From Thermococcus alcaliphilus (lineage in GTDB: Archaea > Methanobacteriota_B > Thermococci > Thermococcales > Thermococcaceae): DNA of 64,000 nt. Below the pieces are notes generated by a model. It was not told the DNA's origin. It searched no databases and was given only the letters and a program-made list of their open reading frames with translations. The position numbers were made by a program, and so were the translations under genes. Each line of letters starts with the position of its first letter. Positions within the stretch are counted from its first letter, which is position 1. This document shows, piece after piece, positions 2,415-40,244 of this stretch. The stretch is taken from contig NZ_JAMXLV010000023.1 in the NCBI RefSeq assembly GCF_024054535.1, positions 62,001 to 126,000 of the forward strand. The letters are read 5' to 3'.

Positions 2415-2536
2415 TGTACCACTCCACTTTCCTTTTTTCTTTAAGCTTTAAAAGATTTTTTCGCCTTTGCAACCCTTTTTAAATTTTTCCGAGAAGACTT
2501 ATTAATCCTAAGGTTGAGGTTCTAACGGTGGTGTGA

Positions 2537-3220: not shown

Positions 3221-3270
3221 ATCTTTTCTTTTCTCTTCTTAACTTGAAAATAAAGTTAATAGAAGAGGAA

Positions 3271-5145
3271 TCATCCTCTGAACCTCGGCCTCATGCTTAC
3301 AAGCAGCGGCAATGGCCTTGGTTTGTAGGGGAACCCTTCTGTTTTCTGCTTTATCTCTTTTATTAAGTCTTCAATGTGCATCTCATACTGTCCGCCTTCT
3401 CTTTTTCTGACGGTGATTACTCCCATTCTCTTTTCGTTTTCACCGACGACAACTATGTAGGGTATCCATTCTTTCTCTGCTTCCCTTATCTTTTTGTTAA
3501 GTCTTTCATTTCTATCGTCGACATCGGCTCTTATCTTTGCCCCTTCGAGCTTTCCAGCAACGTAGAGGGCATAATCGAGGTACTTATCGCTAACGGGGAT
3601 AACTCTAACCTGAATTGGACTTAGCCAGAGCGGATACATGGGCTTTTTGCCTTGCTTTATGAGCTTTGCTTGCTTTTCAAGTATAGCGTACATCACTCTC
3701 TCTATTGCCCCACTCGGCGAGCAGTGGAGGATTAGTGGATACTTTTCTTCCCCGTTCTCGTCGTAGTATGTTATTCCAAATCTTTGGGCGTTTTCCACAT
3801 CTATCTGCACCGTACTTAGGGCAGCAGCCTTGTCGAGGTTATCGACGAAGTTGAACTCGAACTTGAGGATGAAGTAGAAGAACCTTTGCTTCCACATCTC
3901 GATTAAGACGGGCTTTCCGATTATCCTTGCGAGCTCTACTATGAAGTCCTTGTTTTCATTCCAGAAGTCTTCTGTGAATCTTATTGCCACTTCATAATCT
4001 TCCGGAGTTAATCCAACTCCCTTGAGGACTTCCATACTGAGCTTATACTGCTTCTTGAACTCTTCCATTGCCTGCTGTAGGTCTTTAGCTACCGTGTGCA
4101 TATCGGGCATTGTAAATGCCCTAAGCCTTCTCAGGCCAGAGAGCTCACCGCGTTTTTCTCTTCTAAATGAATACCTCGTGAGTTCATACATTCTAAGCGG
4201 CAGGTGGCGATAGCTGATTGTGGCGTCCTTCTTTATGAGGAACTGACCAAAACAGGCTGCAAATCTGAGGAAGAACTTCTTATCACCGCTTTTTACTATG
4301 TACTGCCTTGCTGGAAATCTGTTGAGGTACTTCTCAAGGGCTGGGTGCTCGAAGTCATACATAATTGGCGTTTCAACTTCCATTGCTCCATATTCAATAA
4401 CCTTTTCCGTTACATAGTTCTCAAGAAGGGACTTTATGAGCCTTCCCTTTGGATAGTAGCGGAGGTTTCCAGGGTCGCTGCCTTCCTCATAGTCCACAAG
4501 CTCCTGTTCGAGCATTATCTTAACGTGAGGAGGTTCTTCCGTTGCGACTCTGCTCTTGCTTATCTCATAGTTTGCAAACTTTCTGAGGTTTTCATAGCCA
4601 GAGAAGTCAAACTTGTCCACCTCGATGAGCTCTCCCTCTGGTGTGAGGATGTACCAGTAGCTGACGAGCTCCTCTTCTTTCTTGAGGGCCTCTGGTACCT
4701 CTTCCTCCTTCTTTGCTTCACCCGGTATAATTGTCCTTGAAAGCTCCGCGAGGGGGTGACCCTTACAGCTGAGCTTGAATGCCTTGTAATAGCCAAAAGG
4801 TGCTCTCTTAACGTTGTAACCCTTCTCTTTAAGCTTTTCTTCGATCTCCTTGAGTATCTTTAATGCAATGTCTGGAGAACCAAGCTCGCTACTTAGATGG
4901 GCGAAGGGATAAACGAAAATGTTCTTTGTTTTTACCTGAGAAGCAACGTCCTCTATCTCTTTAACAGCCTTTTCAACAACTTCCTTCGGGTTTTGCTCAT
5001 CTACCTTCTCCACGCTTATAAAGGCAGCAAGAACCTCTTCAAGCCTGCCTTTTTTCTGTTCTTCGCTTATCTCCTCGGGTTTTTTTAGGGCTTTATCCTT
5101 TACCTCATACTCGAGGTAGTCACTGTGTATCAGGAGCATTCTCAT
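3271..5145 (-). CDS. thrS: Threonyl-tRNA synthetase, archaeal type
   Basis: A 624-residue class II synthetase that charges tRNA-Thr. The N-terminal ~140 residues ([15 protein letters not shown]...) are the archaeal D-aminoacyl-tRNA deacylase-like editing domain, which removes mischarged Ser. The catalytic core follows, with motif 2-like [17 protein letters not shown] near residues 345-361 and a C-terminal anticodon-binding domain ([16 protein letters not shown] onward). Length matches the archaeal family. The start at 5145 is fixed by GAGGTGGTG just upstream. It is transcribed alone and divergently from csl4. No substitutions in key regions were noticed. Confidence 0.96.
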
Positions 5146-5267
5146 TTATATCACCACCTCATTCTACTTGGCAAAACTACATAAAAGTTGCCATCAACCT
5201 TTTTATAGCCTTTCCTCATCCATAAACTTAAAAGTTCAGAATAGCTAAGTTTAGTGGTGGTGAGTGG

Positions 5268-5867
5268 ATGGATAAAAAAGAAAAGAAAAGGGTAAAAGAT
5301 GGAGATATAGTTCTTCCAGGGGATTATCTTGGGGTTATCGAGGAGTTTCTTCCTGGTGAGGGTATAATAGAGGAGAATGGAGAGCTGTATGCGGCAAGAG
5401 CTGGAAGAGTAAGGATAAACCCCGAAAAGATTGAAATATCCGTGGAGCCATTAACAGATACTCCACCCCTCCCACAGGTGGGGGATGTTGTAATAGCGAG
5501 GGTTATTGAAGTAAAACCACAAGCCGCCATAGTTCAGCTGCTTAGAATTGAGGGTAGAAAGGGGTACAGAGAGATAGCAACGTCAAAACTTGCTGGAATA
5601 CATATCTCTCAAGTTAGGGATGGATATGTGGAGTCAATGAGCAACGAGTTCAAAATCGGAGACATTGTTAGGGCGAGGGTATTAACGAATGAGAAGAGCC
5701 CTATACAGCTCACCACAAAGGGTTCTGATTTGGGAGTAGTCTATGCCCTCTGTTCTTCATGCAGGACTCCTCTAGTGAGGAGGGGAAACGTGCTCATATG
5801 TCCAAAATGCGGGAGAACAGAGACAAGAAAGCTTTCAACATACTATAGAAAGCTGAAGCTGGAGTAA
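5268..5867 (+). CDS. csl4: Exosome complex RNA-binding protein Csl4
   Basis: A 199-residue cap subunit of the archaeal exosome, which docks RNA on the Rrp41/Rrp42 ring. It has an N-terminal barrel (GDIVLPGDYLGVIEEF), a central S1 domain (VGDVVIARVIEVKPQAAIVQL, about residues 72-150) and a C-terminal zinc ribbon with CSSC and CPKC near residues 165-182. The gene begins a cluster csl4 - DUF2067 - rpo11 - RNase III-like in which spacing is 10 nt or overlapping, so it is probably co-transcribed. The start ATG follows GGTGGTGAG. Confidence 0.93.
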   Translation: MDKKEKKRVKDGDIVLPGDYLGVIEEFLPGEGIIEENGELYAARAGRVRINPEKIEISVEPLTDTPPLPQVGDVVIARVIEVKPQAAIVQLLRIEGRKGYREIATSKLAGIHISQVRDGYVESMSNEFKIGDIVRARVLTNEKSPIQLTTKGSDLGVVYALCSSCRTPLVRRGNVLICPKCGRTETRKLSTYYRKLKLE

Positions 5868-5877
5868 GGTGTAGAAA

Positions 5878-6507
5878 ATGAAAGCCAAGAAGGTTATGGT
5901 TATTCACGTTAAAGATGACATTGAAAAGGAGGAACTCATGAAAGAGCTGCAGAAACTCGAACTTCCCGCCTTTATTTACGTTCATGGCAAATTAAACTCC
6001 CTTAAAATAAACATCCAAGGAACCAAGGACGAGATAAGAGAAGCCATGCAGAAGGTCAGGGACATTCATCAGAGGGTACGCTCTCGCTTGTATCCAGACA
6101 GGAGGGGATTTTACCAATACAATATTGATGATATCTTCAGAGAAGCTGGAACTAGTGTTTCGGTTCCTATTCTTTTAAAGACCCTTGAGCTTCTTGGGGA
6201 AAAGGCTGAGCTTAGGGACAATAGACTTATAAGCTCCCTTCCGTGGAATGAGATTGTAGAACTAACTAAAAAACTCGGGGAAGCATTAAGCGAGGTAGCT
6301 TTACAGACCACAAGGCAAATAAGGGAAGTTGTGCTGCCTGTAGCTATAGCTTTTGAACTTGAGCCGGAGGAGGTTTTGGATATAGCCCTTGAACTGGGGG
6401 TTGCGGAGTATAAGGAGGATAAATTTAAATATGAACTCATCAAGAATAAGGAGCAAGCCCTGGAGATAATGTTGAAAAAACTAACAGGTGAGGAAAATGA
6501 AGATTGA
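5878..6507 (+). CDS. DUF2067 family protein
   Basis: A 209-residue protein that I recognise as the archaeal DUF2067 family by sequence pattern and by its usual place between csl4 and rpo11. The N-terminal ~65 residues alternate strands and helices ([17 protein letters not shown]). A basic patch ([17 protein letters not shown]) and a helical C-terminal half follow. There are no catalytic motifs. Its position in an RNA-processing and transcription operon suggests an RNA-related role, which is inference. Its 3' end overlaps the start of rpo11 by 11 nt, indicating translational coupling. Confidence 0.8.
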
Positions 6508-6784
6508 AGTCATAAAGCGTGAAGAGAACCTGCTCGAATTTTATCTTGTGGGGGAAGATCACACATTTGCAAACTTACTCAATGAAGTGCTTCATGAAAA
6601 CAAACACGTCACATTTGCTGCATACACCATAGAGCACCCAGTTCTCATGGCAAGAAAGCCGAGGTTCAGAGTTGCCACCGATGGAAAAATAACCCCCGAA
6701 AAGGCTTTAGAAGAAGCTGCTCAGAAGATCTTTGATAGGGCAAAAGAGGTCCTTGAGGCTTGGGAGAAGGCGATAAAGGAGTAA
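6497..6784 (+). CDS. rpo11: DNA-directed RNA polymerase subunit L (Rpo11)
   Basis: A 95-residue subunit equivalent to eukaryotic Rpb11 and the alpha N-terminal dimerisation fold. It pairs with Rpo3 in RNA polymerase assembly. The family signature [18 protein letters not shown] lies at residues about 21-38, and IEHPVL follows. The ATG at 6497 is preferred over the GTG at 6488 because the AGGTGAGG ribosome binding site (6486-6493) overlaps that GTG. It overlaps the end of the DUF2067 gene. Confidence 0.96.
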
Positions 6785-6813
6785 CCTCCTTTTTAATTTT
6801 GAGAGGGTAAAGA

Positions 6814-7200
6814 ATGGAGTATTCCATGGACTTTAACGATAAGAATCTCTCAAAGTTTGGGGATTCGCTTGTTAATTTTATCTTTTCTCTCGCCTTAAGT
6901 GAGTACCTTGGCTATCCCAGTGCTGGGAGAGTACCCAATGCATCACTGAGCATTGCCCTTGAGAAGGCCAAGCTCTTAAGTTATGTGCCACCAAGAACAG
7001 ACAAACACGGAAGAGGTGATATTGCCGAGGCAATTTTAGCCTACGCTTGGCTTGAGAAGAAAATAACCATAGATGAAGCTGTATCAATTCTCAAGCGGAA
7101 TTTTACTCCAGATGTTCTCCACCCTTCTAGAAAGAAAGAAGTGATTGGCAATGCTTTTGGAGAGCTTTTAAAGATAATAAAAGAGAGACTAGGGCTTTAA
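6814..7200 (+). CDS. Small ribonuclease III family protein
   Basis: A 128-residue protein containing only an RNase III catalytic-like domain. Motif 1 is LSKFGDSLVNFIFSLALSEYL (about residues 11-31), and the second acidic motif is HGRGDIAEAILAYAWLE (about residues 67-83). There is no double-stranded RNA-binding domain, as in bacterial Mini-III. It therefore probably acts as a dimer on structured RNA; the substrate is unknown. It follows rpo11 by 29 nt and is probably in the same operon. A second Met five codons in is an alternative start. It is convergent with, and overlaps by 4 nt, the next gene. Confidence 0.78.
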   Translation: MEYSMDFNDKNLSKFGDSLVNFIFSLALSEYLGYPSAGRVPNASLSIALEKAKLLSYVPPRTDKHGRGDIAEAILAYAWLEKKITIDEAVSILKRNFTPDVLHPSRKKEVIGNAFGELLKIIKERLGL

Positions 7201-8003
7201 ATGCTGGTGAGGATTTCTATCAATCCCCTCTTTGAGGGAAGCTTTGCGAAAGTGTCGGGATCTTTGACTTTGAGCAATAACGGCACATCACCGAAAAGCT
7301 TTAGCACTTTTCCGAAGGGGATTTTTCCTTCTCCAGGCATCAGGTGAAGGTCTCCAACGCCGTATGCCAGGGCATCCTCTGGCTCTACCTGTGGGAAGAG
7401 CTTTCCGAAGTTATCGTGAATCATAAGGATTATCGTCTTATCTGTACCGAGCTTTACATCTTCCAAGAATCTGCTTTCGTCTCCTTGAGCACTTAAAAAA
7501 GCATGCCCTAAATCAAGGGCAAAGCCTACGTTTTCTCTATTAACGCTTTCAACAACATAGAGAGTGTCTTTAACGCTGTAGGTGTTTTCGAGGGCAATCT
7601 TAATTCCAAAGTTCTCTGCCATTTCAGCCAGCTGTTGAAGGGCTTCTATCTCTAGATCAAGCCTTCCAGTGCGGCCGCTTTGCATGACCACTATCTTTGA
7701 GCCGAGCTTTATTGCTACATCCATTATTGCTTTGGCTACCTTGAAATGTCTGGTGTAGTATACGCTGTCTCTCAAATTCACTGAGGTGGGCATTCTAATT
7801 GTGTAGTTTATTCCAACTCCCCTTAGAGCATTTTCTATTGAGCGCAAGTTCTTTTCTATTACCTGTCCGTTTTTTATTAAGCCAAGTGTATGGGGGAATA
7901 TCTGGACAAAATCATAATCTTTAATCTTCAGCTCTGCCAAAACTGAGGGCAGACCCTTCCCTTTGTTCACAAAATGGGGATAAACACTTACTCCTATCTC
8001 CAT
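7197..8003 (-). CDS. Xylose isomerase-like TIM barrel protein (sugar-phosphate isomerase / endonuclease IV superfamily)
   Basis: A 268-residue TIM barrel of the AP endonuclease 2 superfamily. Barrel-strand motifs include DFVQIFPHTLG, KIVVMQSGRTG, IALENTYS (metal-ligand Glu) and FALDLGHAF (Asp and His ligands). It ends with LHLMPGEGKIPFGKVL, typical of the superfamily. It could be a sugar isomerase/epimerase or a divergent endonuclease IV. The incomplete match to endonuclease IV metal sites makes the first more likely. It is a single gene; the ATG at 8003 follows GGTGTAAG. Confidence 0.75.
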   Translation of the reverse strand: MEIGVSVYPHFVNKGKGLPSVLAELKIKDYDFVQIFPHTLGLIKNGQVIEKNLRSIENALRGVGINYTIRMPTSVNLRDSVYYTRHFKVAKAIMDVAIKLGSKIVVMQSGRTGRLDLEIEALQQLAEMAENFGIKIALENTYSVKDTLYVVESVNRENVGFALDLGHAFLSAQGDESRFLEDVKLGTDKTIILMIHDNFGKLFPQVEPEDALAYGVGDLHLMPGEGKIPFGKVLKLFGDVPLLLKVKDPDTFAKLPSKRGLIEILTSI

Positions 8004-8090
8004 GTCTTACACCTTTTTCTGCTTTTGCTAGAGATTATGGAAACACCAAATTTAAAAGTTTCCAAAGCCATTTCACTTTAGGTGATTCTG

Positions 8091-9095
8091 ATGGAGAGAG
8101 AAATATGGAAGTATCTCAGCTTTATCCTCACGCTCCTTCTAGCGTTAGCAACGGTTGCGGGAGTTCTTCTTTATACTCAAAACGCTGAACTGCAGAGAGC
8201 TCTTCAAGAGAAGAATTTTACGGTGGTTTACAACGAAACGGTAAAGGAGGTAGAGAGCAACGCCACGTTAGCCCTTCAAGCAAAAATAGAAGAGTTGCAA
8301 AGGGAAATTGAATATCTCAAAAGCCAGATGAGAGGAAATGTGAGCGAAGAAACCAATGTAACCGTGGCAATACTTCCCATTATGGGCCCAATTGATGAAA
8401 CCACCGCTTTGGATGTAATTTCCAAAATTAGAGAGATAAGAAAAGATGACAACATCAAAGGGGTTGTTCTGTGGATTGAAAGTCCCGGAGGTTATGTAGG
8501 GCCGGTTATAACCATTTACAAAGAGCTGAAAAAACTATCGTATGAAAAGCCGATAGTTGCTTATACCGGAGGCATGGCTGCTTCAGGAGGTTATTTCCTT
8601 GCGTGTGCCGCTGATAAGATAATAGCCGATCCCCTTGCCGAGGTTGGGAGCATTGGCGTTCTTTACGTCCACTATAACCTGGAGCAAAACTACGCTCAAA
8701 ACGGCATCAAGGTGAATGTGTTCAAGACGGGTAAATACAAAGACATGGGTGCGGAGTGGAGAGACCTCACGGATGAGGAAAGAGAGATGATAAAGAGGAC
8801 AATAAATACATACTTTGAGTATTTCCTCCAAGTTGTTAGCGAGGGAAGAAAGCTCGACATGAACACGACGAAGAAATACGGTGACGGAAGGGTGTGGTTT
8901 GCAAGCGATGTTAAGGGCACTCTGATTGACGACACCGGTGACCTGGACTATGCAATAAAAATCCTTGAAGGCATTATCGGCGTAAAGAGTGCAAATGTTG
9001 TGCTTTATGATGCCCAAAAGACAGACTTTGGTATTTATGAGAGCTCTTCACTCTATATGCCTCCCAATTACATCGCCTCCTATATACGGAGGTGA
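8091..9095 (+). CDS. sppA: Signal peptide peptidase SppA (S49 family)
   Basis: A 334-residue membrane-anchored serine protease that degrades signal peptides left after secretion. One N-terminal membrane segment (residues about 8-28) is followed by a coiled-coil-like stretch (AKIEELQREIEYLKSQ) and the catalytic domain. The nucleophile Ser lies in GGMAASGGYFLA (about residue 165), and the general-base Lys in TGKYKDMG about 52 residues later, the spacing of the S49 Ser/Lys dyad. Start ATG 8091 is chosen over GTG 8082 because GGTGAT at 8081-8086 is the ribosome binding site. Its stop overlaps the ribosome binding site of the next gene. Confidence 0.93.
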   Translation: MEREIWKYLSFILTLLLALATVAGVLLYTQNAELQRALQEKNFTVVYNETVKEVESNATLALQAKIEELQREIEYLKSQMRGNVSEETNVTVAILPIMGPIDETTALDVISKIREIRKDDNIKGVVLWIESPGGYVGPVITIYKELKKLSYEKPIVAYTGGMAASGGYFLACAADKIIADPLAEVGSIGVLYVHYNLEQNYAQNGIKVNVFKTGKYKDMGAEWRDLTDEEREMIKRTINTYFEYFLQVVSEGRKLDMNTTKKYGDGRVWFASDVKGTLIDDTGDLDYAIKILEGIIGVKSANVVLYDAQKTDFGIYESSSLYMPPNYIASYIRR

Positions 9096-18663: not shown

Positions 18664-19716
18664 TCAGAGTATTGTGAATTCTCCCTTTTTCATAATGATC
18701 TCTCCGTCAACCTCTACACTTGGATACCAAACCAGACAGTCGTAATGGTTCAAAGCTGGAGCATCGTTGTCGTAATTTGCTCCTATGGCTATGTGTATTG
18801 TCTTTCTGATCTTCTCATCTTCTAGAAGCTTCCCCGACATCTGGGCTTTGGGGTTAAGACCTATACCGAGTTCCCCAAGATGCCAGGCGTTTTTTGCGTA
18901 TTCCTCCTTTCCCATTTCAAGCGCCATTTTTTCGGCTTTTCTTATTGCCTCCTCAAGCTTCCTTGCATCTTCTCCTCCTTCAATCTTTGTGACAAAGCCG
19001 TTCTTAACATAAACCTTAACCGGCTCTTTTGGAATAATGCTCTCTCCTCCAAGGCTTAAGGTGCCATCGAAAACAATTACACCCTCACTTTTGCCAACTG
19101 CCGGAGAGATAAAAACTTCCCCTGCGGGAAGATTTCCGCCTTTTCCGGGCTTTCTAAAGTCTCCATCGTCTTTTAGTGGCCTTCTGCCTTCAATGTTTAT
19201 CCACAGGTCTGTTCCCTTTTCGCTTGTTATGTGAACCTCTTTCCCTCTTTTCAGAACCTCAGCCAGTATCTCCGCCTCTTCCCTAAGTTTTTCATAATCT
19301 ATTGGAACACTGCGGAGGTACATTTCCTTAGTTATCCCGGGACTCCAGAAGGCTCTTATCCTTTTGTCTCCCCTCAGCAGTTTCTCAAAAATATGGGTGT
19401 ATTTTTTATTGTCCCTTCCGATATATCCAATATTAATACCGTAAGGATCTTTTCCAAGCTTTTTTTCACTTATGGATACCACAATATCCGGCTCTGATTT
19501 TATGGCCTCTATAACGGCTCTCTCTGCATAGTCTAGAGTTCCTTTTGGGCTCTGCACTATTATTGCTGGCTTTGCCTCGAACTCCCTGGCAGCTTCAAAG
19601 AGGCTCAAAGATATTTCAAGAGGCTCTCCAGGGTTGGTTATTATTAAAATTTCTTCTCCCTTTTCAACTCCTAAGACCTGCTCCATGACCGTTCTTGATA
19701 CATCGATTAGCTTCAT
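18664..19716 (-). CDS. M29-like metallo-aminopeptidase
   Basis: A 350-residue cytosolic aminopeptidase of the thermophilic M29-type family. Putative metal ligands are the Glu of LPAGEVFISP (near residue 200), the ELGIGLNP region near 285, HIAIGANYD near 311 and a closing NHYDCLVWYP with His and Asp. The N-terminal half is an alpha/beta domain (ILIITNPGEPLEISL). It would trim peptides from protein turnover. Start ATG 19716 follows GAGGGTGAAA. It lies 9 nt upstream of ychF, suggesting co-transcription. Confidence 0.85.
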   Translation of the reverse strand: MKLIDVSRTVMEQVLGVEKGEEILIITNPGEPLEISLSLFEAAREFEAKPAIIVQSPKGTLDYAERAVIEAIKSEPDIVVSISEKKLGKDPYGINIGYIGRDNKKYTHIFEKLLRGDKRIRAFWSPGITKEMYLRSVPIDYEKLREEAEILAEVLKRGKEVHITSEKGTDLWINIEGRRPLKDDGDFRKPGKGGNLPAGEVFISPAVGKSEGVIVFDGTLSLGGESIIPKEPVKVYVKNGFVTKIEGGEDARKLEEAIRKAEKMALEMGKEEYAKNAWHLGELGIGLNPKAQMSGKLLEDEKIRKTIHIAIGANYDNDAPALNHYDCLVWYPSVEVDGEIIMKKGEFTIL

Positions 19717-24191: not shown

Positions 24192-24248
24192 TATCATCAC
24201 CGGAACTCACTATGGAATGAGACTTTTAAATTTTTATGTTTCCGCCCA

Positions 24249-24265
24249 GGATACTGTTAGGATAA
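24249..24265 (+). repeat. IS left terminal inverted repeat
   Basis: GGATACTGTTAGGATAA, perfectly complementary to 25016-25032. Confidence 0.93.
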
Positions 24266-24321
24266 GCTGTGGGGTGTCAGGTTTAAGTTACTGGCAGTAC
24301 TTCAGAAAAAGAAGGGGGAAC

Positions 24322-25024
24322 ATGAAGTCTGAAACCATTATTTACTGGATGGTTTCAGTCTTAAAACCTTTTCGCCGAAACAGAATCCCACCAGAAAAGA
24401 AAATCAGGGCAATAAACCTGTACCTACACGGCCTAAGCTACAGACAAACCGCCAGAATCCTCGGAATCAGCCACACAACCGTCTGGGAAGCCGTTCAGAA
24501 AATAGCAGAAGCGGTTTACCACCCAAAAATCCTCGCAGTCAAAAAAACAGCGAAACTTCATCGCAGTTGACGAAACAGTAATAAAAATCAACGGGAGGAA
24601 AAGATTCCTCTGGGCGGCGATTGACGTTGAGAGCAAGGAGGTTTTGGCAGTCTGGATTACGACTGTTAGAAACTGGTGGGTTGCCAGGGATTTCATTCTG
24701 GTTGTTTTAAAGTCCTGTGAAGGGCAGCCTGTCTTTCTGGTTGACAGGGCGAGCTGGTATAAGTCTGCTTTTAAGAGTCTGGGGTTGGGTTATCTGCATG
24801 TGACTTTCGGGCCGAGGAATAGTGTTGAGCGCTGGTTTAGGACTGTTAAGGAAAGAACAAAGCGTTTCTGGAATAATTTCAGGAGTGAGGACTGGAGGAG
24901 GGTTCATAGGTTTGTTTTTCTGTTTGCCTTCTGGTATAATTTTGTCAGAATTCATTCTAGGTTTGGTAGGCCTCCGGGTGATGTTACTGAATGGCTTCAG
25001 GAGGTGATGCCCCAATTATCCTAA
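24322..25024 (+). pseudogene. IS transposase, DDE type, frameshifted
   Basis: The reading frame starts at 24322 (MKSETIIYW, after GGGGGAA) and carries a helix-turn-helix (LSYRQTARILGISHTTVWEAV). It stops at 24570. The rest continues one base later in another frame to 25024. The DDE acids are in AVDET, LVDRASWY and NSVERWFR, so the catalytic domain is split from the DNA-binding part. Deleting one A from the A7 run at 24541-24547 restores a continuous protein of about 233 residues. It is therefore a slippage mutation, a sequencing error, or possible transcriptional slippage. The shift is +1, unlike the usual -1 programmed shift of insertion sequences. Confidence 0.85.
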
Positions 25025-25032
25025 CAGTATCC
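25016..25032 (-). repeat. IS right terminal inverted repeat
   Basis: Reverse complement of the left repeat over all 17 bp. It begins 8 nt before the transposase stop, so the gene runs into the repeat. Confidence 0.93.
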
Positions 25033-25080
25033 AAAATCATTTATAAAAACACAGTTTATTATGTTTTAGGTGAAGTTTGA

Positions 25081-26274
25081 ATGTCAAGAAATCTTTATGA
25101 CTTAGAAAAACTGCTGAATGAGTGTAAAACCAACTCGTGCATAATGAACATTCTATTTGATGCCGGACTGCTTAAAATAGAGCAGTCTAAATTCTTTTAT
25201 AAAGATCCCGATCCGATCGAGCCTGTTTATTTAAAAAAAGTCGAAGGAATGCTAATTGGAACCGCAATTGGAGATGCACTCGGATCCTCTGTCGAAGGCA
25301 CGATCCCTAGAAATAGAATAGCAGAATTAAAAGGATATCCCCCACGAGCGCACATTACGGATGACACCCAGTTAACGTTCTGGACTCTTGAAGTATTTTT
25401 AAAGCATAATTGGTTAAATCCAAAAGCCTTAGCCGATCGCTATACAAAAGAGAGGATAATCGGGATAGGAAGAACTGTTAAATATTTCATCAAGAACTAC
25501 AAAGACCTTAAAGTCCCTTGGTATCTGGCAGGTGGGAAAAGCGCCGGAAACGGTGCTCTTATGAAGCTCTCTCCTGTCGTCATTCCTCACTTACTAGAAC
25601 CCTCTAAAGAATTATGGAGCGATGCAGTGATTACGACATATCTAATATACCAAGATAAGCTCGCAATTTCATCTGCAGTTGCATTCACTAACTTGTTATG
25701 GAAGCTTATGAAAATTAACCGACCACCAGAACCAGAATGGTGGCTAGAAGAGTATGTGAGAGTAGCTAGGGAACTAGAGGGGGATAATTCCCTATACAAG
25801 CCACGTAGTGGAAGGATTACCTATACAGGTTCCGCTTGGTATTTTATTGAGAAGATTTTAACAAAGGCTTTAAATGAAGGGTGGAGTCTGTATGATTTAA
25901 ATAAAACAGTTGGATCTGGCGCTTATTTGTTGGAAACAATTCCTATGGTGTTATATACTCTAATGTGCTATAGTGAAAATCCGTTTGAAGCTCTTGTAAA
26001 CGCTGTAACTTATAGTAAGGACAGTGACACAATTGGAGCGATAGTTGGTTACTTGCTAGGAGCACTTTATGGTGTGAGAGCATTTCCAAGGCATTTGCTA
26101 GAGCCGGCTATTAAAGGAGAACTATTGCCAACTACTTTTTTGGAATTAGTTCGGAAAACGGAGGATTATTTGCTCGCAAAAGAAAAGGAAGTATATGGCT
26201 CAAATGCAATTGTGACTACTGAAGATACTGTAGTATACCGACCACAAAAGTCCTTTCTAAAAACTCTCTTCTAA
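25081..26274 (+). CDS. ADP-ribosylglycohydrolase family protein
   Basis: A 397-residue protein. After an unusual ~50-residue N-terminal extension it has the ADP-ribosylglycohydrolase fold: KVEGMLIGTAIGDALGSSVEG (near residue 55), the metal-binding THDDT-like HITDDTQLT, SAGNGALMKLSPV and the C-terminal SKDSDTIGAIVGYLLGALYG. All-helical enzymes of this family bind two Mg2+ and remove ADP-ribose from proteins or DNA. Its own promoter (TTTATAAAAAC at about 25039-25049) begins just outside the insertion sequence. It lies in the accessory island, so a phage-defence or toxin-reversal role is possible but unproven. Confidence 0.88.
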   Translation: MSRNLYDLEKLLNECKTNSCIMNILFDAGLLKIEQSKFFYKDPDPIEPVYLKKVEGMLIGTAIGDALGSSVEGTIPRNRIAELKGYPPRAHITDDTQLTFWTLEVFLKHNWLNPKALADRYTKERIIGIGRTVKYFIKNYKDLKVPWYLAGGKSAGNGALMKLSPVVIPHLLEPSKELWSDAVITTYLIYQDKLAISSAVAFTNLLWKLMKINRPPEPEWWLEEYVRVARELEGDNSLYKPRSGRITYTGSAWYFIEKILTKALNEGWSLYDLNKTVGSGAYLLETIPMVLYTLMCYSENPFEALVNAVTYSKDSDTIGAIVGYLLGALYGVRAFPRHLLEPAIKGELLPTTFLELVRKTEDYLLAKEKEVYGSNAIVTTEDTVVYRPQKSFLKTLF

Positions 26275-26305
26275 AGAGCCACTAAGTTTCTGCTATTTTC
26301 AAGGT

Positions 26306-26935
26306 TTACCATGTTTTGTATACATAACCCACTTTTAAGCTATTTCCGTACACTATTAGTGAGACTGAGGATATCAAAGTTAGAAACCATCCATAACTCA
26401 TTTTGAGGGTATATACCCCTTCCATAAAGCCAATTTTTCCTAAAGGCACTCCAGTAATAATCGCAAATACTGGATAATCATATCCTATTATTTTTAACGT
26501 GTTATAAACTCCATACAAGTAGTACAAGCTCGTTAGGACGCCTAAAATTCCAAGTCCAATCAATATCTTTCTAGTCTTCCTCTTTTCGTACGGCTTGGTG
26601 AATCCTAAAATTAATCCAGTTAAAGCTAAAATAGCCGGGAGCATCGATAAGTAGAACACATTCGTTCCATAATTAAGTACAAATGCTCTTATAAATTGTT
26701 CCATGTTATCAGAGGGAACTTTCTTTCCTGAAAATCTTATTATGAGTTCTGAGAACGAGTAGCTTTCCCTCCAGCTACCTTCTATTGTATTTAGACTGTA
26801 AACCACTTTGTGAGTGTATATGTCGGTAGTTAGCAATCCTCCAGTGACCCTATCGATTATTGTTGACCAAGGCATCATGACTATGGAAAGGAGTAGTAAC
26901 CCACACAAAACTACCTGTCCAGTTCTATACCTCAT
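26306..26935 (-). CDS. Hypothetical integral membrane protein
   Basis: A 209-residue protein with about four hydrophobic segments: VVLCGLLLLSIVMM at the N terminus, VFYLSMLPAILALTGLILGF, ILIGLGILGVLTSLYYLYGVY and WFLTLISSVSLIVYGN. There is a likely extracytoplasmic loop of ~60 residues after the first. I recognise no family. The ATG at 26935 follows GGAGGGTGAT. It starts 25 nt after the stop of the large transglutaminase-like gene, so the two form an operon and may act together at the membrane. Confidence 0.65.
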   Translation of the reverse strand: MRYRTGQVVLCGLLLLSIVMMPWSTIIDRVTGGLLTTDIYTHKVVYSLNTIEGSWRESYSFSELIIRFSGKKVPSDNMEQFIRAFVLNYGTNVFYLSMLPAILALTGLILGFTKPYEKRKTRKILIGLGILGVLTSLYYLYGVYNTLKIIGYDYPVFAIITGVPLGKIGFMEGVYTLKMSYGWFLTLISSVSLIVYGNSLKVGYVYKTW

Positions 26936-26959
26936 TTCAATCACCCTCCAGCAGTTTGC

Positions 26960-29900
26960 TTATTTTTTGGCGAGATTTAGTATTATTTTTAGTGAATCCC
27001 CTTCCTGCTCTAATTTGACCCAAAATCTGTTGAACCTCTGCAAATCATATTTAAGCCTTAAATCGTCGGTAAAGGATGTAAATAAGTATTCTACAAATTG
27101 CTCATGGAATACTGGATTGTAGAAATCTGCATAATGAGGAAACTCCATTCTCCAAGTTACCCCGTCAGAGTATCCTACAGGCAAATATGATCTTTTATCA
27201 AGATTGGCAATATTGGTATCAAGAATCAAATTGTGGTAATGTTCCTTAAACATCCGTTTTAAATCTTCGGATATCTTGGTTATATCTACAAAGCTAAATT
27301 TGTAATCCCTTTGTTTAAAGTCCTCCGCTGAAAGAGTTTCAACTTTCTCAACTAAAACACCACTCCTATCCTTTTTGACCTCATAAATCGTGGCATTTGA
27401 AATGAACAACCTCTCGCCGAGAGTTTCCTGCCTATAAGTTGACAAATCGGTATAGTATGTCCCCAAATCCATTACTGGTGGGTGTTGGTCTAAAATAAAG
27501 TATTCTCCGTTGATTTTTATTGCAGTGGCTGTATGTCCTGTCTCAGAGTTTTCAAAGTTTATATCAAACACGTAAACTGGAGAATAACCCATTTCTAATA
27601 AGAGTGCAGTAGTTAAGATTGTATAATCACTGCAGACGCCTTTTCCCCTTTGAATAGTTTCATACGGAGTCTGGATCTCCGTGCCTTCCCCTCCAGTGAC
27701 TTCCTTTATTCTCCCATCTGGATATTTCCATATTATAGGAGCTGGGAGGGAAGCCTTGTAATAGTCATATTCTATGTTTTTGTCAAGCCATTCTAGGATA
27801 TTCCACGCGCTTTCCTGTATGGTCTCTCCCTTCAATTGATTGGCTAGGTTGGAGATTCTTGAAAGCTCTTCTTCAGTTAGAGCACATTTTAGAGCATCTT
27901 CAAAAATATACCTCCAATAACCATTAGAACAGTAAGATTCAGAAGTTATTGGGAGTGTTTGTGTATATGTCTGAGTTGGTATGTATGTTTGTGTTAAGGT
28001 GCTTGTGTAGGGAGTTTGGGAAAGTTCAAACACTTTTACATCGTCATAATATACTTTAACTCCTGCATGGTCGGAAATAAGAACTATTGCATTTATATTC
28101 TCAACATCGGGAGAATATGCTGTTACGTCTTTAGCAATAAGTTTTCCATTAAGGTACACTGAGAAAGTCTTAGTACTCCTATCTAAAATTACCTTAAGGT
28201 GATACCACGTTTTAGGCATCCACTTGGCAACAGGTGTGGAACCAACGATGACTTTTCCATTTGATTGGAAGTAAACTCCTGCATAGTACCTCCCCCAAGC
28301 GTCTAGTTCCTTATTCCAGAATAACACTCTTGCAACCATTTTTTGGTCATGTGTACCATACTCCTCGATGTAAATCTTAGTTTCAAAGCCTATAACCTCT
28401 GAAGAGGAGTAAAACATGCGTTCTGCAACTGCAGACCACCCTGATATACCCCATAGCTGGAGTGATTTGTCTCCAGAGAAGGAAACTGTATTGGTCACTA
28501 TTTGATACTCTCTTCCCTTGCCGGACCAGACGAGTCTCCATTTATCACCAGAGGGGAATTCACCAATAGGGTATTTTTCAAAATCCTCCAAAAATAATGT
28601 ATTTTCCGTTGGAATGTATGTAGGAGGAGTGCTTGTAGCTGTAGTTTGAGTATAACTACCAATGTTATCAAAACTTCCTTGCGAGTACAAATAGCCAACC
28701 AATATCAATAATAGTATTACAACCCCTACGGCTATATACTTCCCTTTGGACTTCTGTTTTTTCCTACCTGGCTTTTCTTGTCTCTTATTTGCTTGCCTGG
28801 AGAGCTTTGTAATATCCTCATTTATCTTTTGTTTTTCGTCTTTTTTAGGCAACGGTTCTCCTCTCTCGACAGCTGAATGTTTTATATTTGGGGATCTTAT
28901 GGAAGGTGTGCTCTTCGGAGTAGAAGTGCTCCCCAGGTATAGATCTTCTGGTATTATAATCCACCGCTCCCCATCTCTAATCTCAAATCTAATTGATGGT
29001 GAACGTGGGATTACTTTTTTGATTGTTGACGTCTCTATGTAGATCTCTTTGGGAGTGACATAAACACTACCCCAATCCTTAAGTCGCTTTTTGACATTTA
29101 TAATCACATTGTCGTACCGAGTATAATTTTTAGGAAACCATGTTCCTGAAACTCTAATTTCTTTAGGGGAGCTGGATTTCCCTATACCATATAAGCTTGT
29201 ATTTTTCCAATCATATTCCTGCCAGAACTTTTGAGTGTAAGGGTAACAGGGATGACCATCTTCTCTGTGCCACTCCTTGTCCAAGAAGTCTCTCAAATCT
29301 TTATGATTAATCCACAACTCTTGATATTTCTGAAATGTTAATACCAAAGAAGGTCTAATATGCTTTTCACAAAACCATTCTCCACAATATGGACATTGAT
29401 AAAGCTTTTTCTTACTCTTATCTCCATCATAAACAGCACACCTAGAGCAAACACCAAAATCTAGGGACTCCTCTTCTTTTAACTTACCTGGTTTTGTTTG
29501 ACTTTTTGGCATTTCTTGAGGCTTTTCCATTTGAAGAGGTTTACTCTTTTCTACGTCGAACATAAAATTTGAGAATACCTCTACTTTTCCGGTTAAATAC
29601 TTCTCAATTTTTTGTCCAAGGAGGATAAAGTTGGTTTTTATCTCTTCAGCTATGGGGAGCATCTCTCTTTGGTTATAGAGTCGGGTGTATACATATTTTA
29701 TAGCTCGCATATAATCGTATAGAATTTCTTCTGATACTTCGGATAAGTTCTTGTTATAGTACTTGTGCCACAATTCGTTTCTCCAGTCTTCCAAAAACTT
29801 CGCCATTACTTCGGGAGTAGTGTACTCCTTAACGTCAAGGCTCCAGTCCTTATAATGTACAACAGAATTATCATGGAGTGTTGCTATTATGGAATTCAAA

Positions 29901-29965
29901 ATAGGGTTGATGATTCTGGTAATGAGGTAGTGGAGGTCTTTAGAAGGTTGGGGTGGATTTTCCAC
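26960..29965 (-). CDS. Large membrane protein: AN1-like zinc finger, TM, LamG-like and transglutaminase-like domains
   Basis: About 1001 residues in an unusual order. A helical N-terminal region (1-140) comes first, then an AN1-like zinc finger CSRCAVYDG...CPYCGEWFCEKH (about 173-202). A Lys-rich segment precedes one membrane helix (about 409-427). Outside lie a concanavalin/LamG-like domain (about 455-650), a Thr-rich linker and a transglutaminase core with Cys in GKGVCSDYT (about 777), His in TGHTATAI (about 810) and Asp in FILDQHPP (about 825). The triad suggests an extracellular thiol peptidase or crosslinker, with a zinc finger inside. GTG 29965 is chosen after AGGTGG; GTG 29974 is the alternative. 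It is in an operon with the membrane protein downstream. Confidence 0.8.
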   Translation of the reverse strand: MENPPQPSKDLHYLITRIINPILNSIIATLHDNSVVHYKDWSLDVKEYTTPEVMAKFLEDWRNELWHKYYNKNLSEVSEEILYDYMRAIKYVYTRLYNQREMLPIAEEIKTNFILLGQKIEKYLTGKVEVFSNFMFDVEKSKPLQMEKPQEMPKSQTKPGKLKEEESLDFGVCSRCAVYDGDKSKKKLYQCPYCGEWFCEKHIRPSLVLTFQKYQELWINHKDLRDFLDKEWHREDGHPCYPYTQKFWQEYDWKNTSLYGIGKSSSPKEIRVSGTWFPKNYTRYDNVIINVKKRLKDWGSVYVTPKEIYIETSTIKKVIPRSPSIRFEIRDGERWIIIPEDLYLGSTSTPKSTPSIRSPNIKHSAVERGEPLPKKDEKQKINEDITKLSRQANKRQEKPGRKKQKSKGKYIAVGVVILLLILVGYLYSQGSFDNIGSYTQTTATSTPPTYIPTENTLFLEDFEKYPIGEFPSGDKWRLVWSGKGREYQIVTNTVSFSGDKSLQLWGISGWSAVAERMFYSSSEVIGFETKIYIEEYGTHDQKMVARVLFWNKELDAWGRYYAGVYFQSNGKVIVGSTPVAKWMPKTWYHLKVILDRSTKTFSVYLNGKLIAKDVTAYSPDVENINAIVLISDHAGVKVYYDDVKVFELSQTPYTSTLTQTYIPTQTYTQTLPITSESYCSNGYWRYIFEDALKCALTEEELSRISNLANQLKGETIQESAWNILEWLDKNIEYDYYKASLPAPIIWKYPDGRIKEVTGGEGTEIQTPYETIQRGKGVCSDYTILTTALLLEMGYSPVYVFDINFENSETGHTATAIKINGEYFILDQHPPVMDLGTYYTDLSTYRQETLGERLFISNATIYEVKKDRSGVLVEKVETLSAEDFKQRDYKFSFVDITKISEDLKRMFKEHYHNLILDTNIANLDKRSYLPVGYSDGVTWRMEFPHYADFYNPVFHEQFVEYLFTSFTDDLRLKYDLQRFNRFWVKLEQEGDSLKIILNLAKK

Positions 29966-30260
29966 AGTTTCCACCTATTATAGAAAAATATCTATGTCGA
30001 CGTATATTAAGTTTTTGGGAACTGATGACGAAATTTTCGAAAGAAGTTTGTGATTTTTGCGTAAGTTTTGATTAGTTAGATCCGATGATTGATCCAGCTT
30101 CTAGGTTCAAATGCAATGCAAGTTCCAAAAAGTTGATTATTGAAAGATTAAATATAATTTGGTGATTCCTGTGGATGTGAGGTCGACTTCTGGAGGAGTT
30201 TTGTTAAGGTTAACGTATAACCTTAGGCTCTCTTATTGCTGGTGAGAGTTAAAAATCATT

Positions 30261-30332
30261 TTTTCACCATTCTACTCGGTGATTCACCGTTATAGTGAAA
30301 ACTTCATCCGGTGATTAATCATAATTTTCACC
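30261..30332. repeat. Nested GGTGA/TCACC inverted repeats
   Basis: CGGTGA-T-TCACCG is a perfect 13-bp palindrome at 30277-30289. It sits inside outer arms TTTTCAC (30261-30267) and GTGAAAA (30295-30301). A further pair GGTGA (30310-30314) and TCACC (30328-30332) follows. Direct copies GTGAAAT and GGTGAAAT occur shortly after, near 30389-30403. The regular reuse of one pentamer in a noncoding stretch suggests a protein-binding array. Confidence 0.65.
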
Positions 30333-30358
30333 CTTTTAACCACTGTTTAATTGAGATA

Positions 30359-30384
30359 TGATCACGTGTCGGCACTTGTGATCA
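30359..30384. repeat. Inverted repeat TGATCAC-N12-GTGATCA
   Basis: Perfect 7-bp arms at 30359-30365 and 30378-30384, each containing the palindrome TGATCA. It lies within the repeat-rich noncoding block next to tRNA-Phe. It may be an operator or a recombination site; nothing decides. Confidence 0.6.
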
Positions 30385-30498
30385 CAGAGTGAAATGGTGA
30401 AATTACTAATTCGTTCAGGCTGAAGTGTGGTAGAACTGAGTGGCAAAAATCAAGTTTGAATAAGTTTTCGGCTGTTTAAACTGTCAGAAACGAAGAAG

Positions 30499-36381: not shown

Positions 36382-36480
36382 ATGTAAACTCTTATTTCCT
36401 TTTCTCTAAAATATCTCATTGGTGTCTGCTTGTTAGAGTTATATCGGTTCAAAGCTTTATAAAAATAAAAGTGAAAAGGC

Positions 36481-37275
36481 TTACTTCTCCAGTGCTCTTG
36501 TAAAGCCTCTCAGCCCAAGCAATAGGGCTATGAATGTCAAACTCGTAAGGTATGCTAGTGATGTGACAACTACGGATGAAGAAAGAGGGATTCTGTAAAT
36601 AAGGCTTCTAGTAATGTTTGATGTATGTGTCATCGGGTTTACTGAAACTACTAAACTGAGCAACTTGTTACCCTCGAATACCTCCTTTGGATAGAATACC
36701 GTGGAAAGGAACATCATGGGAAGCATTATTATTCCAGATATTGCCATTGGAAGGTTAGGGTTCCGCCCCTTAGACAACAGCCATATCATAAGGCTCGAAA
36801 GTATTACAACGAGGGTGGAATTGACCAAAAAACTTTTGATAAAGTTCAATGGTGTCAAAGAAACATCCTCTGAGACTATAACAACGAGAAGCGATAATGT
36901 TGCCATGGCAACAAATGCCCTTAAGCAAGCTCCTAAAATCTTAGCAATAAACAGAATTGACCTTGAAATCGGGAGTGTGAAAAGAGTTTCTAAGCCCCCA
37001 TAGAAACGATCTTGAATGAATGTTGTCGCTCCTCTGAACCCCTGATTTATACCCACTAAAGTTAATACTCCCGGGAACATAAATGCAAGGTATGAGATTT
37101 CCACCCCGCCAATGTTTATTCCTCCTATGAGCTTCTCCATTAGGGGGCCAAAAATTAGAACATATATTACTGGTTCAAACATTGTTCCCAGCCAGAATTC
37201 CAGGTCTATGCCAACCTTAGTTTCTCTTGACATGGCAACTCGAAAAGATGAAAGTAATTCACTGAGTTTCGCCAT
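36481..37275 (-). CDS. ABC-2 type permease of the putative RiPP exporter
   Basis: A 264-residue integral membrane protein with about six segments and the ABC-2 layout: an N-terminal amphipathic start (KLSELLSSFRVAMSRETK), a first segment at about residue 30, a GINIGGVEISYLAFMFPGV loop, RFYGGLETLFTLPISR (coupling region), and a last segment ALLLGL. Start ATG 37275 follows GGAGGTGAAG and overlaps the ATPase gene by 17 nt, indicating coupling. Fourth gene of the minus-strand operon with the Cys-rich peptide and radical SAM enzyme, so it likely exports the mature peptide or gives immunity. Confidence 0.85.
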   Translation of the reverse strand: MAKLSELLSSFRVAMSRETKVGIDLEFWLGTMFEPVIYVLIFGPLMEKLIGGINIGGVEISYLAFMFPGVLTLVGINQGFRGATTFIQDRFYGGLETLFTLPISRSILFIAKILGACLRAFVAMATLSLLVVIVSEDVSLTPLNFIKSFLVNSTLVVILSSLMIWLLSKGRNPNLPMAISGIIMLPMMFLSTVFYPKEVFEGNKLLSLVVSVNPMTHTSNITRSLIYRIPLSSSVVVTSLAYLTSLTFIALLLGLRGFTRALEK

Positions 37276-38230
37276 CCACTTCACCTCCAACGTCTATTAT
37301 ATTCAGGTAGACATCTTCAAAGTTCAGGGTAGTGGCAAATATTTCAATTACCTCCAGCTCTTGGGAGATTGTTGCTTGAAGAACCTCGTTTAGGGGGTTA
37401 TCCAAAGAGCTCAGCTGTACTTCAAAGGAATTTGCACTAATTGGGTTAACACCTTTAACATCCTCAAGCTCCATAAGGGTTCTCTTCAACCTTTCAAAAT
37501 CCCCTATTGGGTTCCTTGTGACTACCCTCAGAGTCTTTCCAAACCTTTCTTTTAGCTCTGAAGGGGCCCCTTGGGCAACTATCCTTCCGCGATTTATAAT
37601 TAACACCTCATCTGCTAGGTACTCCACTTCATACAGATCGTGACTTGTTAAAAGAACAGTCATCCCTTTTTCTTTAACCATCTCTTCAATCAGCTTCCAT
37701 GTTTCCCTCTTGCTTTTTGGATCAATCCCTGCTGTAGGTTCATCGAGAAATACCAGGGGAGTATTACTCAAAAGCACGCACGCCAGCTGGATTCTTCTTT
37801 TAAGTCCTGTACTTAGCTGAAATGGTTTTTTGTAGGCATGCTCTTTGAGGTTAAAGGTCTTGAGAGCATAATCACAGCGTTGTCTTGCTTCTCTTTTGCT
37901 AAGTCCTCTAAACCGGAAATAGTATATTATGTAGTCCCTAACCGATAGAGCCGGCGAAAGGTCCGGTTCTTGGGTCATGTAAGCTATTCTTTTTCTAACC
38001 TGGTTTGGATTCTCAATGACATCTATTCCATCCACCAGTATTCTTCCGCTGTCTGGCCGATAGATTGTGGCTATCATTCTTAAAGTGGTGGTTTTTCCCG
38101 CTCCGTTTGGCCCAAGTATTCCAAAAACACGACCTTTCTTGACTTTGAAACTGATATTGTCAACCGCCACGACTTCTCCATTAGAGCTGGGAAATTTTTT
38201 TGTTACATTCATTACTTCAACTATTCCCAT
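37259..38230 (-). CDS. ABC transporter ATP-binding protein
   Basis: A 323-residue ABC ATPase: Walker A GPNGAGKTT (about residues 39-47), Q-loop YMTQEPDLSP, a signature region reading QLSTGLKRRIQLA (in place of LSGGQ), and Walker B PLVFLDEPTAGID. The C-terminal ~90 residues form the extra domain common in drug-type exporters of the ABC-2 class. Start ATG 38230 follows AAGGAGGGTA and overlaps the end of the radical SAM gene by 14 nt. It works with the permease downstream. Confidence 0.93.
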   Translation of the reverse strand: MGIVEVMNVTKKFPSSNGEVVAVDNISFKVKKGRVFGILGPNGAGKTTTLRMIATIYRPDSGRILVDGIDVIENPNQVRKRIAYMTQEPDLSPALSVRDYIIYYFRFRGLSKREARQRCDYALKTFNLKEHAYKKPFQLSTGLKRRIQLACVLLSNTPLVFLDEPTAGIDPKSKRETWKLIEEMVKEKGMTVLLTSHDLYEVEYLADEVLIINRGRIVAQGAPSELKERFGKTLRVVTRNPIGDFERLKRTLMELEDVKGVNPISANSFEVQLSSLDNPLNEVLQATISQELEVIEIFATTLNFEDVYLNIIDVGGEVDGETQ

Positions 38231-39490
38231 TATTTACCCTCCTTTTAGACATTGGACATCTAGGATCGGGTTTTTTAATATCTCCTGCAATTGTGAGCAC
38301 TGTGGCTGGGCACTTGGCACATACAAAACCACAATAGGTACAAGGTTCATTTTTAGGCCACATTAGTCGGAATTCCCATAAAACTTCACTTTTATGCCAA
38401 ACTTCCACAAGACTATCCTCATATAGGTTCCCTGCAATATACTTGGAGGATCCATCTGCTATTTGAATAAGGGTGCATGGAGTTATATTCCCCTCAGCAT
38501 CTATTGTCACCTGGACAACTCCAGCAGAACACAGGTAATACGCCCTCTTTTTAGCAGGTTTTCTTAAAGCGGGTGGGAAATAGCCCAAATCATCACCAAA
38601 TTCTATACCCTTTATACCCGAACTTTCCCACCATTTGTAGACGTCCTCCCTCATCTTCACGAATTCTTCAGGTGAAGGGAACAAATTGACGCGAGATCTT
38701 GCATTACCAACAGGATATTCCATTTTAACAGCCCATGCTCTTATTGGTAAATCTCTAATTTGATTTAGCAGAGCAGGAATATAATGGTATGTGTCTAAAG
38801 AAACTGTTGTTTGAATTTGAGGTTTCCAGCCTAACTCTGCTAGTTTCTTGATATTCTCTATAATTTTTTCAAATATCCCCCTTCCTCTAATTTTTTCATG
38901 TATTTCTTTTGGTCCATCTATGCTTATAGTTACTAGGAAGCTCTTTTTCTTTTTGTTAGCGTATTTTTCAAGATACTGGGGGAGATTTGTTGTTCCATTT
39001 GTAACTATATGGGCATATATTTTACTTTTATGGATGATTTCCAGAATTTTCTCAAAATCTGGATGTAAAGTAGGCTCGCCTCCACCAATAGCGAGCTGAT
39101 AACATCCTAACTTCTCCATATCCCATATTAACTTTTGGATAACATCTACAGAGAGAGTTGTGGGATTCTCTCTGGTACCAACATAACAATGCCTGCATTT
39201 CAGATTACACCTATGTGTGATCTCAACAGCTATAGCACCTGGTGGGAAGAACTTGGGATTATTTGAATCATAGGGAAGGACAATCTTATGATCTATAAGG
39301 TCCTCTATAAACTTTTTTGTTCTTGGGTTTCTATAGATATTGGTTCTCTTCTGATAATTTTAATAAACATTTCTGTTCCTTCTTTGTCAAGCCCTAATTC
39401 CTTATCGGGCATATATATTATTGCTTTGTTATTTTTAAGCTCCCAGACTAATTGTGGATTTGGAAGAAACAATTTCCTTTTATCTTCCAA
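38217..39490 (-). pseudogene. PqqD-like (RRE) plus radical SAM/SPASM maturase, frameshifted at an A6 run
   Basis: Two frames form one enzyme. The first, from TTG 39490 (after GGGGGTGA), encodes a PqqD-like leader-recognition domain (LPNPQLVWELKNNKAIIYMP) and stops at 39305. The second, one frame off, has no start codon before its radical SAM motif CNLKCRHC (about 39190-39215), then GGGEPTLHP. Its SPASM-like cysteines are LCSAG, PCTL, EPCTYCGFVCAKC and DPRCPMSK. Adding one A to the A6 run at 39313-39318 gives a 424-residue fusion. It may be a true mutation, a sequencing error or slippage. It would modify the upstream Cys-rich peptide. Confidence 0.85.
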
Positions 39491-39549
39491 TAATTTCACC
39501 CCCTTAATGGAAAAAAGATGAACAAAAAGTATAAATCCAAAACAACAAA

Positions 39550-39672
39550 TCATGTCAATTTAATTACGGATTGGGTGCATACCATACAAAATGCACACAC
39601 AAATGGTAGTTCTTCTGTGTTGCCTTTGTATTCTGAATACTTTCGTTCCTTAAAATATATAATCCCTGCCAT
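39550..39672 (-). CDS. Putative RiPP precursor peptide, 40 aa, CxxCxxC core
   Basis: A small gene too short for usual calling. ATG 39672 lies 3 nt after GGGGGTGAT (39684-39676), one of the best ribosome binding sites in the window. The peptide starts MAGIIYFKERKYSEYKGN, a charged, Tyr-rich leader-like part. It ends EELPFVCAFCMVC-TQSVIKLT, with Cys at 26, 29 and 32. Regular Cys followed by a short tail with Thr, Ser and aliphatic acceptors is the layout of sactipeptide/ranthipeptide-type precursors. The PqqD-radical SAM gene begins 59 nt downstream on the same strand. Function is inferred from context. Confidence 0.78.
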   Translation of the reverse strand: MAGIIYFKERKYSEYKGNTEELPFVCAFCMVCTQSVIKLT

Positions 39673-39690
39673 GGCATCACCCCCAATATT

Positions 39691-39729
39691 AATTGATACT
39701 AATACTAATTAAAATTTAATATTTTTAAG
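39691..39729 (-). promoter_or_regulatory. Promoter of the RiPP-like operon
   Basis: On the minus strand, the TATA-like CTTAAAAATA (39729-39720) lies about 50 nt before the precursor ATG and would start RNA near 39697. Between them is a direct repeat TTAGTATTAGTATC (around 39706-39693), a possible operator at the transcription start. Confidence 0.5.
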
Positions 39730-39850
39730 TTTTTTTAAAACAATAAGTTTGCAATGATAAGTTAGCAACGTTAAGTACTACATCTAATTATTTGAAAAAT
39801 TACTTAATTATAAAATAATTATAACACAAGACCTAAGGAGAAATGTGGAG

Positions 39851-40133
39851 ATGAAACTGATAGGTATTTTTACTTTTTTAGTTTGTTCGTTTTAGGAAGT
39901 ACTTCAAGCATGGCATATCCCCCTCAGCTAAAACTACAAACGCATTGCCTGCAAATCTAGCTAATTCTGATTTTAGTAAGCTCACAAAGAGATTACTCTC
40001 AGGAAAACCGATTTATTTTCATGGAAAGGAAGCTCCAAAAAACGCTCAGAGATTCCAGAAATTGATCAAGATTGGTGTTCATAATAAAAATTTTAGAATA
40101 TGCCTGACGATAGGTTCTAACATTTTATATTGA
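39851..40133 (+). pseudogene. Degenerate small secreted protein gene, unrecognised
   Basis: ATG 39851, 10 nt after AAGGAG, starts MKLIGIFTFL and is soon shifted. The next frame continues LFVLGSTSSMAYPPQLK, together a convincing signal peptide with an SMA-type cleavage site. A second shift leads into an open frame TTNALPANLANSDFSKL... ending ICLTIGSNILY at 40133. So three frames in order read as one secreted protein of about 90 residues with two frameshifts. I recognise no family. It lies divergently beside the RiPP-like operon. Confidence 0.4.
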
Positions 40134-40244
40134 GATGCTCCAATTTGATACTCAAAACTCACGTTAGGGCATTTTATTTTTGCAATCTCTGCAATAACTT
40201 TTTAACTGCCATATCATAAATTCACTCGGCGGGGTGAGAGAAAA

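Follow-up and report, generated by a model that had tools for sequence, protein, structure and literature searches.

What does the cluster of genes on the minus strand at positions 36481-39672 of the window produce, and is it able to produce it? The window is the whole stretch of 64,000 nucleotides analysed here, and it comes from a Thermococcus alcaliphilus genome (G000; Thermococcaceae) of 1.89 Mb in 25 contigs. A sequence-only reading had described the cluster as a working compact RiPP pathway consisting of precursor, maturase and ABC exporter. That observation is partly confirmed: the cassette exists, but the enzyme at its centre is broken, a point which the sequence-only reading missed. 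The best explanation, to which we assign a probability of about 0.6, is a degenerate two-peptide, radical SAM-modified RiPP cassette, in which the ABC pair is responsible for export and immunity, and in which the maturase was disabled recently in the window. Judged from sequence, the product of such a cassette is probably antimicrobial.

Three of the genes have open frames exactly where they had been placed. These are the 40-amino-acid precursor peptide of the CxxCxxC type (MAGIIYFKERKYSEYKGNTEELPFVCAFCMVCTQSVIKLT; 39550-39672, minus strand), which is identified by its open frame, a profile match and alignment; the ABC transporter ATPase (37259-38230, minus), intact according to its open frame and family models; and the ABC-2 type permease (36481-37275, minus), intact according to its open frame and Pfam. 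A candidate archaeal TATA element (CTTAAAAATA; 39720-39729, minus), as read from the sequence, is located about 48 nt upstream of the precursor, and similar A/T-rich elements are also present upstream of the precursors in loci L016 and L017. The overlaps of 14 nt between maturase and ATPase and of 17 nt between ATPase and permease are as described, although they make up two overlapping junctions and not the three that had been counted. The maturase, which had been presented as a single gene at 39490-38217, cannot be read in that way: the interval has 1274 nt, which is not a multiple of three, and its straight translation contains 29 stops. It is divided into an N-terminal PqqD-like fragment with a TTG start and a TAG end (39305-39490, minus), delimited by open frame, ortholog alignment and profile alignment, and a radical SAM/SPASM part (38217-39314, minus), which is recognized by frame and Pfam and lies in a frame different from that of the N-domain. 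The point where the two frames part is a run of six A (T on the plus strand), read directly from the sequence at 39313-39318 (minus).

The meaning of this division depends on how intact cassettes look. Among 94 Thermococcaceae genomes, the window's genome included (115 in the phylum set), the maturase is found in three, the window's genome, G004 (presumably Pyrococcus abyssi GE5) and G015, so that orthologous cassettes are present in two of the 93 others and every comparison of the maturase is one of three sequences only. In G004 and G015 the maturase is intact, in one frame, and preceded by two paralogous precursor genes, one encoding a CxxCxxC and the other a CxxxCxxC peptide; in the window only the CxxCxxC type is present. 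Precursor(s), maturase, ATPase and permease follow in the same order in three genera. The precursor is thus conserved next to homologous maturases, and the interpretation of the gene family as RiPP genes, whose proposed check was a search for precisely this neighbourhood, is upheld.

The relationship between the precursors is clear. A profile built from the four peptides of G004 and G015, with the window left out, gives an E-value of 1.4e-13 for the window peptide; among the window's 1,767 stop-to-stop frames, none of the others scores better than 0.12. When the five peptides are aligned, M1, A2, Y6, Y15, G17, P23 and F24 are common to all of them together with three Cys; the conserved leader reads MA[KR][IV]EY[VI], and the Cys triad is located near the C-terminus, followed by about 8-14 residues. 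A profile of all five peptides gives no further strong match among the 94 Thermococcaceae genomes, and therefore the second precursor is absent from the entire window genome. As to a remnant, the stretch from 39550 to 39491 resembles the 3' end of the G004 gene only at about p=0.05 against shuffled sequences; the second precursor may have been deleted or may never have been present. Against solved structures, the precursor profile retrieves only weak zinc-finger and thioredoxin look-alikes. The cassette contains no gene for a leader peptidase.

The interruption of the maturase was considered from several sides. The N-domain frame ends at the stop at 39305, and the CNLKCRHC motif belongs to another frame. 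That second frame, the radical SAM frame, opens only after a stop at 39362-39360 and contains no ATG, GTG or TTG between this stop and the motif; no usual internal start would therefore give a product that includes the radical SAM cluster. On the one hand, a run of six A is a usual place for an indel error, the genome is a draft of 25 contigs, and the downstream part bears no sign of decay, all of which would fit an assembly or sequencing error that hides a working maturase and a one-peptide pathway. On the other hand, none of the 74 homopolymers of at least six in 57 coding sequences (54.7 kb; a list picked from intact open reading frames, though covering almost the whole window) is broken, and in an alignment of 44.8 kb of coding sequence with the close relative G077 two single-base differences shift the frame, each time with the open copy on the side of the window. 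Considering these two results, a sequencing error is conceivable but unlikely, and the additional absence of the second precursor also speaks against it. The two differences are located at window positions 9368 and 60164, where the G077 copies appear to be frame-shifted or mis-sequenced.

Recoding, in which slippage during translation or transcription of the A-run would give some full-length maturase, suits the site itself and the unaccelerated change of the downstream part; however, in G004 and G015 the maturase is encoded in a single frame with no A-run at the corresponding place, so there is no conserved recoding, and we regard this explanation as improbable. The radical SAM part has accumulated 21 lineage-unique changes in the window and 21 in G004, and the dN/dS of the maturase is about 0.05-0.07, a rough value with synonymous sites near saturation, which indicates strong purifying selection. 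Since the radical SAM part has changed no faster than in an intact lineage, the break is young. The window copy was thus in all likelihood disabled recently, the loss of function being visible at the sequence level. It follows that the window strain probably makes no modified product, although it may still be protected by the transporter. The claim of a working compact pathway in the window is accordingly given up, as the maturase is split between two frames and the other precursor of the intact cassettes is absent. A cluster that looks attractive can turn out to be a recent wreck, and only a check of the reading frame reveals it.

What kind of enzyme was lost? The CNLKCRHC motif and the SPASM cysteines are present as had been described, and both domains score above the Pfam cut-offs (Radical_SAM E=1e-28, SPASM E=9e-9). 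The radical SAM motif CX3CX2C reads CNLKCRHC in the window and CNLKCEHC or CNLQCEHC in the orthologs, and the radical SAM/SPASM part is 79% identical to that of G004 and 70% to that of G015. Compared with the canonical SPASM motif, CX9-15GX4C - gap - CX2CX5CX3C - gap - C (PMC6231123), the first half, CX12GX4C, has the canonical spacing, whereas the second Cys block is CX2CX3CX2C in three of three orthologs and departs from it. The leader-binding-like domain of the sequence-only reading is moderately supported. The N-domain is matched neither by Pfam PqqD nor by NCBIfam, its profile alone aligns poorly and without significance to PqqD domains, and a fold search with a low-confidence model of the truncated domain gave no meaningful match. 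However, the full-length profile aligns to PqqD-radical SAM fusions of the same phylum at E=4e-49, with an alignment that runs through N-domain residues 19-70, and the same model (pLDDT 73, low confidence) has the order beta-beta-beta-alpha expected of PqqD-type domains. By sequence, the N-domain is likely to be PqqD-like.

No NCBIfam equivalog model reaches its cut-off for the maturase. The sactipeptide models AlbA (84.6 bits, cut-off 850) and StsB (86.4 bits, cut-off 625) stay below it, and the maturase is not assigned to the sactipeptides; the ranthipeptide model PapB likewise scores 73-86 bits against a cut-off of 340. The closest sequence in the PDB is an anaerobic sulfatase-maturating enzyme (E=7e-16), with SuiB, SkfB, PqqE and CteB also among the matches, and AhbD (97 bits, cut-off 500), W_rSAM (85, cut-off 380) and NirJ (83, cut-off 515) are among the weak NCBIfam matches. 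These matches could be taken to mean that the enzyme matures a sulfatase, a heme or a tungsten enzyme and that the small open frame beside it is there by chance. Such identities were rejected, as the NCBIfam scores are far below the cut-offs and no sulfatase, heme or tungsten-enzyme gene was seen beside the three cassettes; moreover, the small open frame is co-conserved and duplicated. A role outside RiPP biosynthesis is extremely improbable.

The cassette occupies different genomic sites in its three hosts. The stretch 36412-40176 of the window is absent from G077 (by comparison with G077 and same-genus genomes), in which the flanks are 97-99% identical to the window and an unrelated gene of 550 amino acids takes the site (L113, 10060-11712). 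In seven genomes of the same genus the S19e and PDCD5-type genes are adjacent, with a gap of 73-83 bp. This site (window 36382-40244) looks like an insertion hot spot that holds the cassette, the 550-amino-acid gene, or nothing. In G004 the cassette is located elsewhere, adjoining truA, and in the seven remaining genomes of the Pyrococcus genus (G004 and G008 aside) the flanking gene of 158 amino acids stands directly beside truA. The G015 cassette comes after fragments that resemble the window's transposase. The window ATPase is 66% identical to that of G004 and 57% to that of G015, and for the permease the values are 68% and 65%. The patchy distribution at different sites implies horizontal transfer, repeated loss, or both. 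Protein and alignment scans of a wider contig collection, from which close genomes are seemingly excluded since G004 was missed too, gave no relatives, and distant relatives outside the phylum may exist. A scan of viral contigs gave two distant radical SAM matches only, and plasmids and phages gave no match.

Two further segments of the window differ from G077. About 6.2 kb (24246-30484), containing transposase pieces, an ADP-ribosylglycohydrolase-like gene and an open frame of 1004 amino acids, is absent from G077, where the sequence is contiguous, and it ends 14 bp from the 3' end of tRNA-Phe. At 18690-19653 most of the open frame of 350 amino acids at 18664-19716 is missing from G077, and the flanks join almost exactly there.

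Whether the product is a weapon can be approached through the genomes that hold the transporter without the precursors and the maturase. The matching transporter genes are intact in three such genomes, G008, G093 and G002. In G008, the sister of G004, a truA-side promoter region 83% identical to that of G004 leads straight into the transporter, whose ATPase is 86% and permease 92% identical to those of G004. The dN/dS values of these two genes in G008, which also take in the time before the loss, are 0.10 and 0.07, compared with 0.06 and 0.04 for two neighbouring genes. The stand-alone copies in G093 and G002 are closest to the G015 transporter (82-91% identical). A pump that is kept without the peptide genes fits a pump that gives immunity, and hence a harmful product. 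The proposal that the ABC pair confers immunity thereby gains independent support, and, apart from the argument of the sequence-only reading, the transporter-only loci are what argues most strongly for an antimicrobial product. Alternatively, the RiPP product could be a signal, a metal binder or a cofactor, with the ABC pair a plain exporter or importer. The antimicrobial activity is deduced from sequence, the Cys triads CxxCxxC and CxxxCxxC could bind metal, and transporter-only genomes could use the pump for uptake of, or response to, a peptide made by others. Yet a lone transporter in three genomes, each 82-92% identical to the version of one producer, fits immunity better, and dispensable conflict genes typically show such a patchy distribution over different sites; a role other than antimicrobial is therefore held to be rather unlikely. 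Next to the stand-alone transporters of both G093 and G002 lies, on the opposite strand, a gene for a transporter-like protein of about 395 amino acids (L141 in G093, 4009-5202, minus; L142 in G002, 3794-4978, minus), and a similar protein is encoded beside PqqD-radical SAM genes in L089 (G047).

In an intact antimicrobial cassette, two short paralogous peptides would be bound by the N-terminal PqqD-like domain of the maturase, and the radical SAM/SPASM part would modify them, most likely by crosslinks using the Cys residues, as its domain content suggests. The ABC/ABC-2 pair would export the product and, in line with the evolutionary evidence, also protect the cells. This arrangement resembles subtilosin (Sbo/Alb), the sporulation killing factor (Skf) and thurincin H, in which ABC genes adjoin a short Cys-rich precursor and the maturase combines an RRE, a radical SAM domain and a C-terminal Fe-S domain in one protein; here the likely PqqD-like N-domain would take the place of the RRE. 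In type I sactipeptides the hairpins are nested, with donors ahead of acceptors (PMC8172795), whereas in the present cassette the Cys triad is near the C-terminus. It also differs from the named sactipeptide systems in having no peptidase gene, a variant SPASM spacing and a maturase for which no NCBIfam model is reached. Two different precursors in one cassette are known from thuricin CD, a two-component sactibiotic (TrnA/TrnB with TrnC/TrnD; PMC12093266); however, thuricin CD depends on a complex of two radical SAM enzymes, and here a single maturase gene serves both precursors. Taken together, it is tentatively suggested that Pyrococcus and Thermococcus make a two-peptide, crosslinked, heat-stable antimicrobial, with a topology (Cys near the C-terminus) unlike that of known sactipeptides, and that their strains comprise producers, recently disabled former producers such as the window strain, and immune non-producers with the transporter alone.

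Knowledge of peptide warfare among hyperthermophilic archaea is scant. The main text of a genome-mining study of 3,451 archaeal genomes predicts radical SAM RiPP clusters of the ranthipeptide and sactipeptide classes to be widespread, and mentions neither Thermococcales nor Pyrococcus (PMC12144867). In the open-access main texts searched, no described member from the Thermococcales was found, and this is weak evidence of novelty. The genomes compared here offer a testable system: G004, probably a cultured model; its transporter-only sister G008; G015 as a second genome of the producer type; and the window strain as a natural maturase mutant. Such a system would show whether radical SAM RiPPs are weapons or signals at high temperature, and it could supply a heat-stable maturase.

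The RiPP explanation is also favoured by a second, unrelated cassette with the same four-gene layout in other members of the family (L086 in G078, 2691-6110, and L087 in G047, 2501-5780; both minus). It consists of a precursor of 37 amino acids (MEQTKPVYDMSLKVGGGIVEPYDKWCAQCLINIPLPF, ending in WCAQCLINIPLPF), a PqqD-radical SAM protein, an ABC ATPase and an ABC-2 permease. Its precursor is dissimilar in sequence to that of the window, and its maturase, which Pfam recognizes as carrying PqqD, is about 25-27% identical. Decayed copies of this second cassette were also seen, as truncated maturases in G076 (L102 and L103), a precursor match with an internal stop in G093 (L131) and a fragment in G080 (L132). 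A third RiPP-like type is present in G060 (L090, 456-4243, plus), where a peptide with two repeats ending in GPICAPEAHW is accompanied by a pair of radical SAM genes, a PqqD protein that stands on its own and an MFS-like transporter, and similar genes are located in G080 (L018, near 4862-8347, plus). Finally, PqqD-radical SAM fusions of about 463 amino acids, followed by an MFS-like transporter gene, are found in G016 (L084), G064 (L085) and G038 (L088) at a conserved place adjoining a phosphorylase-like gene.
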